In this document: piece after piece, positions 3,687 to 58,378 of the stretch
Numbering within the stretch: the first letter of the stretch is position 1
Layout of the letters: each line of letters opens with the position of its first letter
DNA from: Nibribacter ruber
GTDB taxonomy: Bacteria > Bacteroidota > Bacteroidia > Cytophagales > Hymenobacteraceae
NCBI RefSeq assembly: GCF_009913235.1
Contig: NZ_CP047897.1
Coordinates: forward strand, 2,251,501 to 2,315,500
Length of the DNA stretch: 64,000 bases
Direction: 5' to 3'
Translations under genes and position numbers: made by a program
Notes under the pieces: model-generated
Told to the model about the DNA's origin: nothing
The model's input: only the letters and a program-made list of their open reading frames with translations
The model's database searches: none

Positions 3687-3736
3687 AGCGTCCGTTTTTG
3701 GCCTGTTTCCCGGGAAAAAAGCCAAAAACGGACGCT
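3687..3736. repeat. 38-bp palindrome, copy 2, with 6-bp paired outer extension
   Basis: The core is 3693-3730. The outer arms AGCGTC and GACGCT also pair, giving a longer hairpin. It lies between convergent genes (ends at 3664 and 3752), so it may serve both as a 3' end structure. Confidence 0.85.
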
Positions 3737-7050: not shown

Positions 7051-7088
7051 CGTTTTTCATCTAATTTCCAGAAAACAGCCCAAAAACG
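7051..7088. repeat. 38-bp palindrome, copy 3, merged with the pruA terminator
   Basis: Left arm CGTTTTTCATCTAATTTC is weak. The right arm GAAAACAGCCCAAAAACG is intact and pairs instead with a second complementary segment downstream to form the pruA terminator. It begins 2 nt after the stop codon. Confidence 0.75.
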
Positions 7089-7116
7089 GTCTCCCGTTCT
7101 TGGGCTGTTTTGTTTT
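7072..7116 (+). terminator. pruA intrinsic terminator built on a palindrome arm
   Basis: AAAACAGCCCAA (7072-7083) pairs with TTGGGCTGTTTT (7100-7111). The stem continues inward for five more pairs after one mismatch, and a T-rich tail follows. The left arm of this hairpin is the right arm of repeat copy 3. Confidence 0.85.
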
Positions 7117-13940: not shown

Positions 13941-13980
13941 GAGCCTGCGGAGTTGCTACTTCGCAGGCTCTTTCGTTTTT
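13941..13980 (+). terminator. aspS intrinsic terminator
   Basis: GAGCCTGCG pairs with CGCAGGCTC around a 12-nt loop and is followed by TTTCGTTTTT. The T-rich tail overlaps the left edge of palindrome copy 6. Confidence 0.85.
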
Positions 13981-14011
13981 GGCCTGTTTTGGTGAAAACG
14001 GACCAAAAACG
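13974..14011. repeat. 38-bp palindrome, copy 6
   Basis: Left arm CGTTTTTGGCCTGTTTTG, centre GT, right arm GAAAACGGACCAAAAACG. It directly abuts the aspS terminator and shares its T tract. Confidence 0.85.
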
Positions 14012-17117: not shown

Positions 17118-17165
17118 AGCTTCGTTTTTGGCCTGTTTCCTGGAAAACAAGCCAAAAACGAAGCT
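17118..17165. repeat. 38-bp palindrome, copy 8, with paired outer extension
   Basis: The core is 17123-17160. The outer AGCTT and AAGCT also pair. It begins at the stop codon of the response regulator gene, in a convergent gap with the ClC gene. Confidence 0.88.
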
Positions 17166-43890: not shown

Positions 43891-43928
43891 CGTTTTTAGG
43901 CTATTTCCCAGAAAACAGACCAAAAACA
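43891..43928. repeat. 38-bp palindrome, copy 19
   Basis: Left arm CGTTTTTAGGCTATTTCC, centre CA, right arm GAAAACAGACCAAAAACA. Its right arm overlaps the A-tract of the following terminator. Confidence 0.82.
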
Positions 43929-43962
43929 GAAAGCGCTACTCAAGGGTAGCGCTTTCTGTTTT
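43923..43962. terminator. bidirectional terminator between mscL and rlmN
   Basis: CAGAAAGCGCTAC pairs perfectly with GTAGCGCTTTCTG, extended by A/T pairs, around a 6-nt loop. T-tracts occur in both directions (GTTTTAT on plus, GTTTTTGG on minus). It lies 18 nt past the rlmN stop. Confidence 0.88.
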
Positions 43963-47350: not shown

Positions 47351-47394
47351 AGCCGTTGTTAGCCTGTTTTCCAGAAAATACGCCAAAAACGGCT
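47351..47394. repeat. 38-bp palindrome, copy 21, with 3-bp outer pairing
   Basis: The core is 47354-47391 (CGTTGTTAGCCTGTTTTC, CA, GAAAATACGCCAAAAACG) with outer AGC/GCT. It lies between divergent genes, about 55 nt upstream of the LD-carboxypeptidase start. Confidence 0.82.
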
Positions 47395-47446
47395 CCTCTT
47401 TTGTGGGCTTTTGCTACTTTCAAGATTCAATAGCTCTAAGAAAACC

Positions 47447-48355
47447 GTGAACATACCCGCCCTGCAGAAAGGAGACACCGTTGGCATTGTTTGTTTGGCC
47501 AGAAAAGTAAGCCTGGAGGATGTTGCCCTGGGCGTACAGCTGCTGGAGAGCTGGGGTCTGAACGTACTCCTAGGCCAGACCATTGGCGCCCAGGACCATT
47601 ACTTTGGCGGCACAGACGCGCTCCGTACCCAAGACTTCCAGGAGATGCTGGACAACCATGAGGTGAAGGCCATCTTCTCGGCCCGCGGCGGGTACGGCAC
47701 CACCCGCATTCTGGACGCCTTGGATTTTAGTCTTCTCAAGAAGCACCCCAAATGGATAGTAGGTTTTAGTGACATCACCTCACTGCACTGCCACTTGCAC
47801 GCGCTGGGCCTGGAGAGCATACACGGCACCATGCCCCTGCTCATGGGCCAGCCCGACACCCAGGAAGCGGATGAAACCCTGCGCCAGGCCTTGTTTGGCG
47901 AGCCCCTCGCCTACTCGGTTCCGGCACACGCGCGCAACCTGGAAGGCACCGCCGTAGGTAAAGTAGTGGGCGGCAACCTCATCCTGCTCAACAACATCAT
48001 TGGCACCGCCTCAGACATAGACTACGCTGGCAAGATCCTGTTCTTAGAAGACGTGGGCGAATATTTCTACAACGTAGACCGCGTCTTGGTGCACCTCAAG
48101 CGCCTGGGCCGTTTGCAGCAGTTGGCCGGCCTGGTGGTGGGGCAGTTCTCAGACATGCAAGACACGGCAGTCCCCTTCGGGAGAGATGTAACTGAAATGA
48201 TCTTGGAACATTGCTCAGATTTTGGCTATCCTATCTGCTTTGATTTTCCGGTGGGCCACGTTCCCAGAAACCTGGCCCTGCTGGTTGGTCGCGAGGCTAC
48301 GTTAGACGTGACCGCAGCCGGCACCTCGCTTACGTTTACCGTGGAGCAGGCTTAA
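47447..48355 (+). CDS. LD-carboxypeptidase, family S66
   Basis: The 302-residue enzyme cleaves the terminal D-alanine from tetrapeptide stems in peptidoglycan recycling. The family signature FSARGGYGTTRIL (77-89) is followed by the nucleophile Ser108 in GFSDITSLHC; the later Glu/His pair lies in LFLEDVGEYFYNVDRVL and the C-terminal FPVGHVPRN. The GTG at 47447 (MNIPALQKGDTVGIV) fits the family; an upstream TTG at 47411 adds 12 unrelated residues. Confidence 0.88.
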   Translation: MNIPALQKGDTVGIVCLARKVSLEDVALGVQLLESWGLNVLLGQTIGAQDHYFGGTDALRTQDFQEMLDNHEVKAIFSARGGYGTTRILDALDFSLLKKHPKWIVGFSDITSLHCHLHALGLESIHGTMPLLMGQPDTQEADETLRQALFGEPLAYSVPAHARNLEGTAVGKVVGGNLILLNNIIGTASDIDYAGKILFLEDVGEYFYNVDRVLVHLKRLGRLQQLAGLVVGQFSDMQDTAVPFGRDVTEMILEHCSDFGYPICFDFPVGHVPRNLALLVGREATLDVTAAGTSLTFTVEQA

Positions 48356-48357
48356 AT

Positions 48358-48413
48358 ATGAAACCCCGTTTTTGGGCTGTTTTCTGGAAAACAGCCCAAA
48401 AACGGGGTTTCAT
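48358..48413. repeat. 38-bp palindrome, copy 22, with perfect 27-bp stem
   Basis: The core is 48367-48404. The nine outer bases ATGAAACCC also pair exactly with GGGTTTCAT, so the whole 56-bp element is a flawless 27-bp inverted repeat around TG. It starts 2 nt after the stop of the LD-carboxypeptidase gene, in a convergent gap. Confidence 0.95.
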
Positions 48414-48430: not shown

Positions 48431-49438
48431 TTACTTCTCTGACTTTACTACCTGCAACACCGTCTGACCAACCACTTTCAACGTGTTCTTGTCAATTACC
48501 TGTAGGTTGTCTGAATGCCGATGATGGTACGGTCCAAAGTAGCCGTCCGGACTGGTAGAATCATAGGCAATAATATCAGCCATTGGGATTTCTGCGTTTT
48601 GGATGACGTAGTAGTGGTCATCTGTGATGCTTGGGCTATTCTGGTACGGGAAGTAGTCTGAGAAGCCCATGCTATGTGCCGTCTTCCAGATGTTGTCCAC
48701 CACGTTTTTGGCATAGGTCCTGCTGATCTCTTCCTGCGCGAAGCGGGCTCCTTTGGCGCCTACCATGTCTAACAAAATTCCATACTGCGCCTTGTAGCCA
48801 ATGGGCATCAGGTTCTTGGACCAGTGCTGCGAGCCCAGGCAATAGGTATCCGGGATGTAGTCACCGGCATCATCGGGTTGGCCGTAGTCTTCGCCGTCAA
48901 AGAGCATGATATCTACGCCTATTCCTTCGCTTAAAGGATTGGCTTGTAGTTGACGAGCAATTTCTAGCAGAACGCCCACGCCGCTGGCGCCGTCATTGGC
49001 CCCGTCAATGGGTTTGTCGCGGTTTTGGGTGTCTTTGTCGGCTACATGGCGGGTGTCCCAGTGGGCGGCCAGCAGGATTCTGCGGGCGGCTTTAGGATTG
49101 ATTTGCCCCATGAAGTTACGCAGTTCCAAGGTTTTGCCGTCATAGGCTTTGGCCGTGAAGCTCTGCACCTGCACCGTGGTCCCGAAGCCTTTCAGCTTAC
49201 CAATCAGATAATCGCCGCAGGCGCGGTGCGCTGGCGTGTTGGGCACCCTCGGCCCGAAGGCCACTTGCGCGGCCACGTACTGGTACGCCGAGTCTTCGCT
49301 GAAGGCGGGAGGGGTCACTTTCACGGTCTCTGTGGTAGGTTCAGAGGATTCTGTGCTGGCGGTGTTCTTGTCTTTGCAGGCAAACAGGTTGGCCGCCACT
49401 AACAAGGTGAGCGCCGCTACTTTCATGTTATTCTTCAT
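48431..49438 (-). CDS. M28-family lipoprotein (glutaminyl-cyclase-like)
   Basis: The 335-residue protein has a lipoprotein signal with Cys21 in NLFAC, then a Ser/Thr-rich linker and an M28 metallopeptidase-like domain. Zinc-binding motifs are [26 protein letters not shown] and [11 protein letters not shown]. The DGANDGASG and SQHWSKN segments resemble glutaminyl-peptide cyclotransferases more than aminopeptidases. It is likely tethered to a membrane facing the periplasm or cell surface. It overlaps the cysS 3' end by 11 nt. Confidence 0.83.
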
Positions 49439-58330: not shown

Positions 58331-58378
58331 ATCTGCGTTTTTGGCCTGTTTTGGTGAAAACAGGCCAAAAACGCAGAT
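58331..58378. repeat. 38-bp palindrome, copy 26, with paired outer extension
   Basis: The core is 58336-58373. The outer ATCTG pairs with CAGAT, so a perfect 22-bp stem closes on GGTG. It lies between the tandem genes maeB and ruvA. Confidence 0.92.

Follow-up and report, generated by a model that had tools for sequence, protein, structure and literature searches.

A minority of the copies of a 38-bp palindromic repeat in Nibribacter ruber are very probably intrinsic (Rho-independent) terminators, built on a repeat that is found across the genus and completed at each locus by matched outer arms that selection would keep paired. At a minority of gene 3' ends (66 of 455 copies with at least 4 paired bases beyond the repeat, 43 with at least 6) the repeat would be the upper stem of the terminator; the transcript leaving the gene would fold into a hairpin of 22-36 bp, composed of the shared core and the locus-specific outer arms and followed by a T-rich tail, and between convergent genes one such copy could serve both strands. 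The outer arms would drift like other intergenic DNA, with changes retained only when pairing is restored, so that their sequence would be local and their complementarity general. The remaining copies are imperfect palindromes and would have another role. Actual termination at the extended copies, and selection as the keeper of their arms, are what we infer from the sequence comparisons presented below.

The family core reads CGTTTTTGGCCTGTTTTC-NN-GAAAACAGGCCAAAAACG, the unit being a 38-bp palindrome. Copies were collected from the window, that is the whole 64-kb stretch of DNA analyzed here, and from 60 stretches of 20 kb (1,264,000 bp altogether) of a genome of 4.35 Mb in a single contig, with at most 8 mismatches to the two arms. 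The genome is Rufibacter-like: for one protein of the window the closest named relatives are in Rufibacter (three records, 71-73% identity) and Sabulibacter ruber (69%), and three more matches have 46-49%. The collection yielded 466 copies, or about 1,600 per genome by extrapolation; 11 copies with another centre length were dropped and the 455 with a 4-nt centre were analyzed. Copies were found in 358 of 706 gaps between genes, and when they were oriented by their CA/TG centre no asymmetry between the arms was found. A generic motif pattern was present in the 20-kb samples of all 14 other genomes of the genus that were sampled, with 1 to 10 matches each, and in both scanned samples of the relative G007, while it was absent from three other genera of the family (one 20-kb sample each). 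The repeat is best explained as a genus-wide, positionally stable intergenic palindrome. Its consensus varies by species, for example CGTTTAGGGGCTcTTTTT in G005 and CGTTTTCGGCTTCgTTTc in G013 (few copies each), in what seem to be dialects, and matched outer arms were also seen on some copies in other genomes of the genus (L145-L158). A literature search, with most subscription papers beyond its reach, found no description of the 38-bp repeat.

Copy 22 of the window consists of 27 paired bases on each side with no mismatches around a 2-nt TG centre, nine more per side than the repeat itself provides, exactly as an earlier reading made from the sequence alone had described it. Its folding energy is -48.1 kcal/mol on the + strand and -44.0 kcal/mol on the - strand (z of -9.7 and -9.0 against shuffled sequences), and a terminator-like score was obtained on both strands alike; copy 22 is best read as a predicted bidirectional intrinsic terminator. 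The outer arms at this locus are GAAACCC/GGGTTTC in the genome under study (G000) and GAAATC/GATTTC in G007. Among the 14 other genomes of the genus, 9 have a palindrome scoring at least 9 within 500 bp of the aligned end of the M28 peptidase gene, at 22-37 bp from it in seven (G001, G002, G003, G008, G013, G014 and G015) and at 84 and 190 bp in the remaining two; by the same score and distance no palindrome was found in the other 5.

Table 1. Repeat copies and neighboring genes in the 64-kb window.
Feature	Position	Strand	Description
Copy 2	3687..3736	.	repeat with 6-bp outer arms AGCGTC/GACGCT; convergent genes
Copy 8	17118..17165	.	repeat with 5-bp outer arms AGCTT/AAGCT; convergent genes
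Copy 21	47351..47394 (core 47354-47391)	.	3 paired flank bases AGC/GCT; divergent genes
LD-carboxypeptidase (Peptidase_S66) gene	47411..48355	+	ORF and Pfam; ends 2 bp before copy 22
Copy 22	48358..48413	.	38-bp repeat 48367-48404 with 9-bp outer arms ATGAAACCC/GGGTTTCAT
Peptidase family M28 gene	48431..49438	-	ORF and Pfam; convergent, ends 17 bp from copy 22
Copy 26	58331..58378	+	repeat with 5-bp outer arms ATCTG/CAGAT; tandem + genes

The scan of the window detected 26 copies, 25 of them with the usual 4-nt centre, its numbering running one lower than that of the sequence-only reading from about copy 20 on. That reading had listed copies 2, 8, 21 and 26 as extended, each with different bases, and about 20 copies as lacking any extension. 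The latter estimate agrees with our count, 19 of the 25 copies with a 4-nt centre having 0-1 paired flank bases, and copies 2, 8 and 26 do extend (6, 5 and 5 bp). In G007 copy 2 has the arms GAATCC/GGATTC, other bases that again form 6 pairs, and at copy 26, with its terminator-like score on the + strand only, the innermost outer pair changes from G-C to T-A. The pairing described for copy 21 is present, but 3 bp alone are indistinguishable from chance (about 3% of copies), and this copy is grouped with the non-extended class; the copy with its core at 13974-14011 likewise has 3 paired flank bases, TTT/AAA. An Rfam search of the window gave no match at the gathering score. Two further structures were observed in it: at 7051-7111 a copy of the repeat is directly followed by another half-site, the two facing half-sites making an inside-out palindrome, and at 43923-43962 there is a second, ordinary type of terminator with the ends AAACAGAAAG...CTTTCTGTTT, which recurs within the genus in L147, L150, L151, L153, L154 and L158.

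Pairing of the flanks was far more frequent than expected by chance. The extension of a copy was defined as the run of paired flank bases beyond the core, and as a control the flanks were swapped between the 455 copies 1,000 times. Extensions of at least 3 bases were found in 86 copies against 15.5 expected, of at least 5 in 53 copies against 1.4 expected (swap maximum 6), and of at least 9 in 13 copies against 0.04, the longest being 18 bases and the total stem of extended copies reaching up to 36 bp. At flank positions 2 to 6 pairing clearly exceeds the control (z 3.8 to 6.2), and this surplus wanes beyond about 6-10. Besides the 66 and 43 copies given above for the longer classes, 341 copies have extensions of 0-1 and 48 of 2-3. 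Of 33 copies whose flanks form a stem of at least 7 bp, 28 have that stem directly adjoining the core, and the remaining 5 are symmetric. An alignment of many copies, with a covariation analysis of their flanks by R-scape, had been proposed in the sequence-only reading; the swaps on 455 copies, used here instead, gave a strongly positive answer.

The copies can be sorted into two classes: extended copies, about 10-15% of the total, with long hairpins, and non-extended copies, which are the majority and have unpaired flanks and imperfect cores. This split is not sharp, given the 48 copies with 2-3 paired bases and a slight excess of flank pairing at positions 3-10 in convergent copies with extensions of 0-1 (191 vs 165, sd 11). 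No covariation was seen when all the cores were pooled; once the copies are divided by extension, it appears in the extended ones and in these only. Cores with extensions of at least 6 have a mean of 1.67 mismatches in 18 pairs, and 239 paired cells against 203 obtained by swapping (maximum 222 in 2,000 swaps), whereas non-extended cores have a mean of 4.0 mismatches, their approximately 14 of 18 core pairs being no more than two half-site consensuses give. Pair 10/29, for example, is paired in 0.98 of the former against 0.57 expected, and in 0.44 of the copies with extensions of 0-1 against 0.50 expected. The median MFE is -39 kcal/mol for extensions of at least 6 and -18 for those of 0-1. 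As to the kind of mismatch, cores of tandem extended copies have 14 G.U and 18 A.C, so the wobble pair specific to RNA is not clearly preferred; where the extension ends, and only there, G.U outnumbers A.C (17 vs 7).

The 341 cores with extensions of at most 1 pair slightly below their own column frequencies, with a z of -5.9 over the seven variable pairs, and the flanks of these copies at positions 3-10 pair at about the swapped rate (725 of 2,728 paired vs 703.5 swapped, sd 23). The deficit is most marked at core pair 13/26, which is paired in 0.23 of the copies with extensions of 0-1 against 0.38 expected, and in divergent gaps in 0.12 against 0.37. The mismatch cut-off is no explanation for it, because the consensus combination itself is depleted there, with 124 G-C pairs seen and about 148 expected from the column frequencies. 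That non-extended copies shun this pair and yet keep both half-sites suggests a reader at the DNA level together with selection against perfect hairpins.

Long extensions are confined to gene ends, as befits the stable hairpin of an intrinsic terminator. Using gene contexts from a simple, and therefore rough, ORF and codon-usage caller, extensions of at least 6 were found in 28 of 123 convergent and 15 of 229 tandem copies, and in none of the 50 divergent, 39 "genic" and 14 contig-edge ones (gene-end contexts vs divergent plus genic, p=7e-5). For extensions of at least 4 the counts are 34/123 convergent, 27/229 tandem, 0/50 divergent and 5/39 genic, these five being copies with extensions of 4-5 inside ORFs of the rough gene caller. 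Moreover, over the first 8 nt outside the stem, tandem copies with extensions of at least 4 have 112 T out of 216 nt (52%) downstream against a fraction of 0.29 A on the mirror side, while those with extensions of at most 1 have 0.31 T downstream and 0.28 A on the mirror side. In convergent gaps the T content is 0.42 for extended and 0.30 for non-extended copies, each copy being counted in both directions so that the two sides are equal by construction. Extended copies thus carry, on average, the T-tract of intrinsic terminators, although many single tails are weak.

Where an extended copy occupies a gap, it also tends to take the place of an ordinary terminator. We considered gaps of 30-600 bp and a strict terminator rule of 6 T out of 8. 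An ordinary terminator outside the copy was present in 2 of the 28 convergent gaps with an extension of at least 5, in 17 of 55 with an extension of at most 1 and in 18 of 32 with no copy; the corresponding values for tandem gaps were 0 of 25, 30 of 170 and 27 of 221. Extended and non-extended gaps differ in this respect in both contexts (Fisher, 0.015 convergent and 0.017 tandem), the difference between tandem gaps with extended copies and those without a copy not being significant (p=0.09); gaps with intermediate copies held another terminator in 3 of 7 convergent and 4 of 35 tandem cases. Even with the copy included, no more than 14 of the 28 convergent and 9 of the 25 tandem gaps with extended copies passed the strict rule, thus the tails of these copies are often weaker than canonical ones. 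The sequence-only reading had offered selection on the hairpin as one of two causes of the matched arms; the location at gene 3' ends, the T-tract on the gene-end side and the absence of ordinary terminators all speak in its favor.

A contiguous 440-kb piece of G000 is collinear with G007, and repeats were masked before the two were aligned. By this procedure 101 of 163 copies were anchored, and 95 of them were present at the same place in G007; of the 6 scored absent, 3 were degraded on inspection. The reverse test, from G007 to G000, gave 93 present, 2 absent and 50 without anchors. In a looser and wider rescan, 133 of 208 copies were present and 10 absent, and 65 lacked anchors; one stretch on the minus strand was skipped, and stretches without synteny to the compared part of G007 were left uncounted. 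At region A 20886 (G000:C1:2120887) all that G007 retains of the copy is its right half; among the losses, this one alone has clean alignments on both sides, and it looks like a deletion, with no clean empty site. In the other species of the genus a copy was found in 25 of 86 shared gaps by a strict motif rule, a figure that supports no conclusion, because every compared G000 gap contained one and none could serve as a control.

The state of a copy is largely shared between the two genomes. Among 106 one-to-one pairs, extensions of at least 4 occur in 18 copies of G000 and 17 of G007, and in both at 14 loci against 2.9 expected; at 4 of the 18 loci extended in G000 the pairing is below 4 pairs in G007, and conversely 3 of the 17 extended in G007 are not so in G000. 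The sequence-only reading had stated that the outer sequence differs between loci but stays complementary, and had suggested looking in a close relative for extensions that change in a compensatory way; the statement holds by the swaps as well as by the comparison with G007, which also gave a strongly positive answer. With loci classed by their state in G000 only, pairing in G007 persisted for 38 of 42 changed left-arm bases where extensions are at least 4, against 4 of 26 for extensions of 2-3 and 61 of 222 for those of at most 1; gaps were ignored, so indels inflate the number of changed positions. Read from G007, the same count gives 34 of 41. This is the compensatory change expected of intrinsic terminators, and it occurs while the arms of extended copies diverge about as fast as the flanks of non-extended ones. 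The left-right similarity correlation (0.98 for extended and 0.20 for non-extended copies) follows from pairing in both species and is no separate evidence.

At several loci (A380133, A422038 and L086:17420) the arms are almost wholly different between the two species and still paired, ACCCGGT/ACCGGGT in G000 and AGGAGCC/GGCTCCT in G007 in the case of L086:17420. Such replacement could come from inverted copying, in which, through template switching at the replication fork (quasipalindrome correction), one arm with its flank becomes the template for the other, so that extensions are made and kept perfect without any selection for termination. We consider this unlikely as the full account. Inverted copying would be expected in any context, yet there are no divergent or genic copies with extensions of at least 6, and it predicts no T-tract on the gene-end side of tandem copies; moreover, non-extended copies have fewer core pairs than swapping gives and flanks that pair at the swapped rate. 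A general process of this kind is therefore improbable, since it left no trace in the core or flank of non-extended copies, and the other cause considered in the sequence-only reading, a mechanism that duplicates flanking DNA in inverted form, is to that extent not supported. Near-complete arm replacement was also considered as a signature of template switching and rejected as not specific to extended loci, because the flanks of non-extended copies diverge as much. Template switching confined to hairpins that are already perfect may nevertheless supply paired mutations at extended loci, and in the available text of PMC8794818 it is proposed as the source of paired changes in other RNA hairpins.

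The long hairpins could also be protectors of mRNA 3' ends or RNase III sites instead of terminators, a quite improbable alternative: stems of 22-36 bp, with the median energy given above for the longest extensions, exceed what termination needs, and roles in mRNA stability are named for other palindromic repeats in the part of PMC2267715 available, but termination is what the T-tract, and the scarcity of ordinary terminators in these gaps, directly point to. Protection and termination are, in any case, compatible with each other. Least probable is that a mobile element inserted into the loops of pre-existing terminators, whose stems became the outer arms: although extended copies do sit at terminator positions and their outer arms, with T-rich tails, resemble the stems of terminators, unpaired loop bases between core and arm, often in unequal numbers, would be expected after such an insertion, whereas the flank stems start flush with the core or are symmetric, positions are stable in both directions of the comparison, the only cleanly aligned loss keeps half a palindrome as a deletion would, and presence-absence differences with clean target sites, the mark of a MITE or other mobile element, were not found between the relatives.

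Tentatively, the 38-bp palindrome might be the site of a putative genus-specific DNA-binding system, which would recognize two half-sites at some 1,600 positions, most of them intergenic, and in species dialects; copies that are not terminators would be kept from forming perfect hairpins, and those at gene ends would have been made into terminators by growing matched outer arms. We regard this as possible, though short of probable; if true, one motif would face contrary requirements for pairing, depending on its gene context. Independently of this, the analysis exposes an abundant genus-wide intergenic motif, only a minority of whose copies are terminator-like. Extrapolating from 43-66 of 455 copies, the genome would hold a natural set of about 150-230 terminators with a common upper stem and differing outer arms, and more than 1,000 copies of the same core without arms provide the contrast for what turns a repeated palindrome into a terminator. 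The same contrast can be used to ask if the two arms evolve together through stepwise selection or through template switching.

Like REP/BIME elements, the repeat is a small, abundant and mostly intergenic palindrome found mainly where genes are convergent or tandem. Three RAYT genes (NF047646; L008:1429-1974, L009:1426-1962 and L010:1402-1953) are present in the genome; however, the palindromes closest to them belong, as judged by eye, to different other families, one beside each gene. The L010 gene lies between two 38-bp copies (L010:1325 and 2074) and the other two have copies downstream only; one doubly flanked RAYT among three is unremarkable, since about half of all gaps hold a copy. With other families closest to the three genes, ownership of the repeat by a RAYT is not supported, although the L010 gene might still be a candidate owner. 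According to the available part of PMC3733652, REPs of the CGTC type have no transposase of their own. No unpaired tag of the GTAG or CGTC type was apparent in the base composition of the flanks of the 455 copies, where the terminal CG is part of the stem, and a place of the repeat among REP elements is not supported. The stem is also of 18 bp or more, compared with 5-13 bp in the portion of that survey available, and, unlike REP/BIME elements, the positions of the repeat are stable between two species.

With quasipalindrome or template-switch hairpins, as far as the accessible text of PMC8794818 describes them, the extended copies share perfect stems and arms that change together; they differ from these in that extensions of at least 6 are confined to gene 3' ends, with the T-tract on the gene-end side. 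Ordinary intrinsic terminators likewise have a stable stem and a T-rich tail on the transcribed side and are bidirectional between convergent genes, but here the apical 38 bp are a genus-wide repeat and the stems are unusually long. The nearest known parallel would be, by analogy, the uptake-sequence terminators. According to the available parts of PMC1852404 and PMC2397512, paired DUS/USS uptake sequences form the stems of intrinsic terminators at gene ends in Neisseria and Pasteurellaceae. The half-site CGTTTTTGG is seldom alone in our genome, 201 of its 220 occurrences in the 440-kb region lying inside detected palindromes (one third-order Markov simulation gave 9, compared with the 19 found elsewhere), and thus the repeat does not qualify as an uptake sequence; its unit is a 38-bp palindrome, most of its copies are not terminator-like, and the outer arms covary by locus. 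What the systems have in common, on the same partial sources (PMC1852404, PMC2397512), is a short repeat present in about 1,000 or more copies per genome, an inverted pair of which makes the stem of a terminator.
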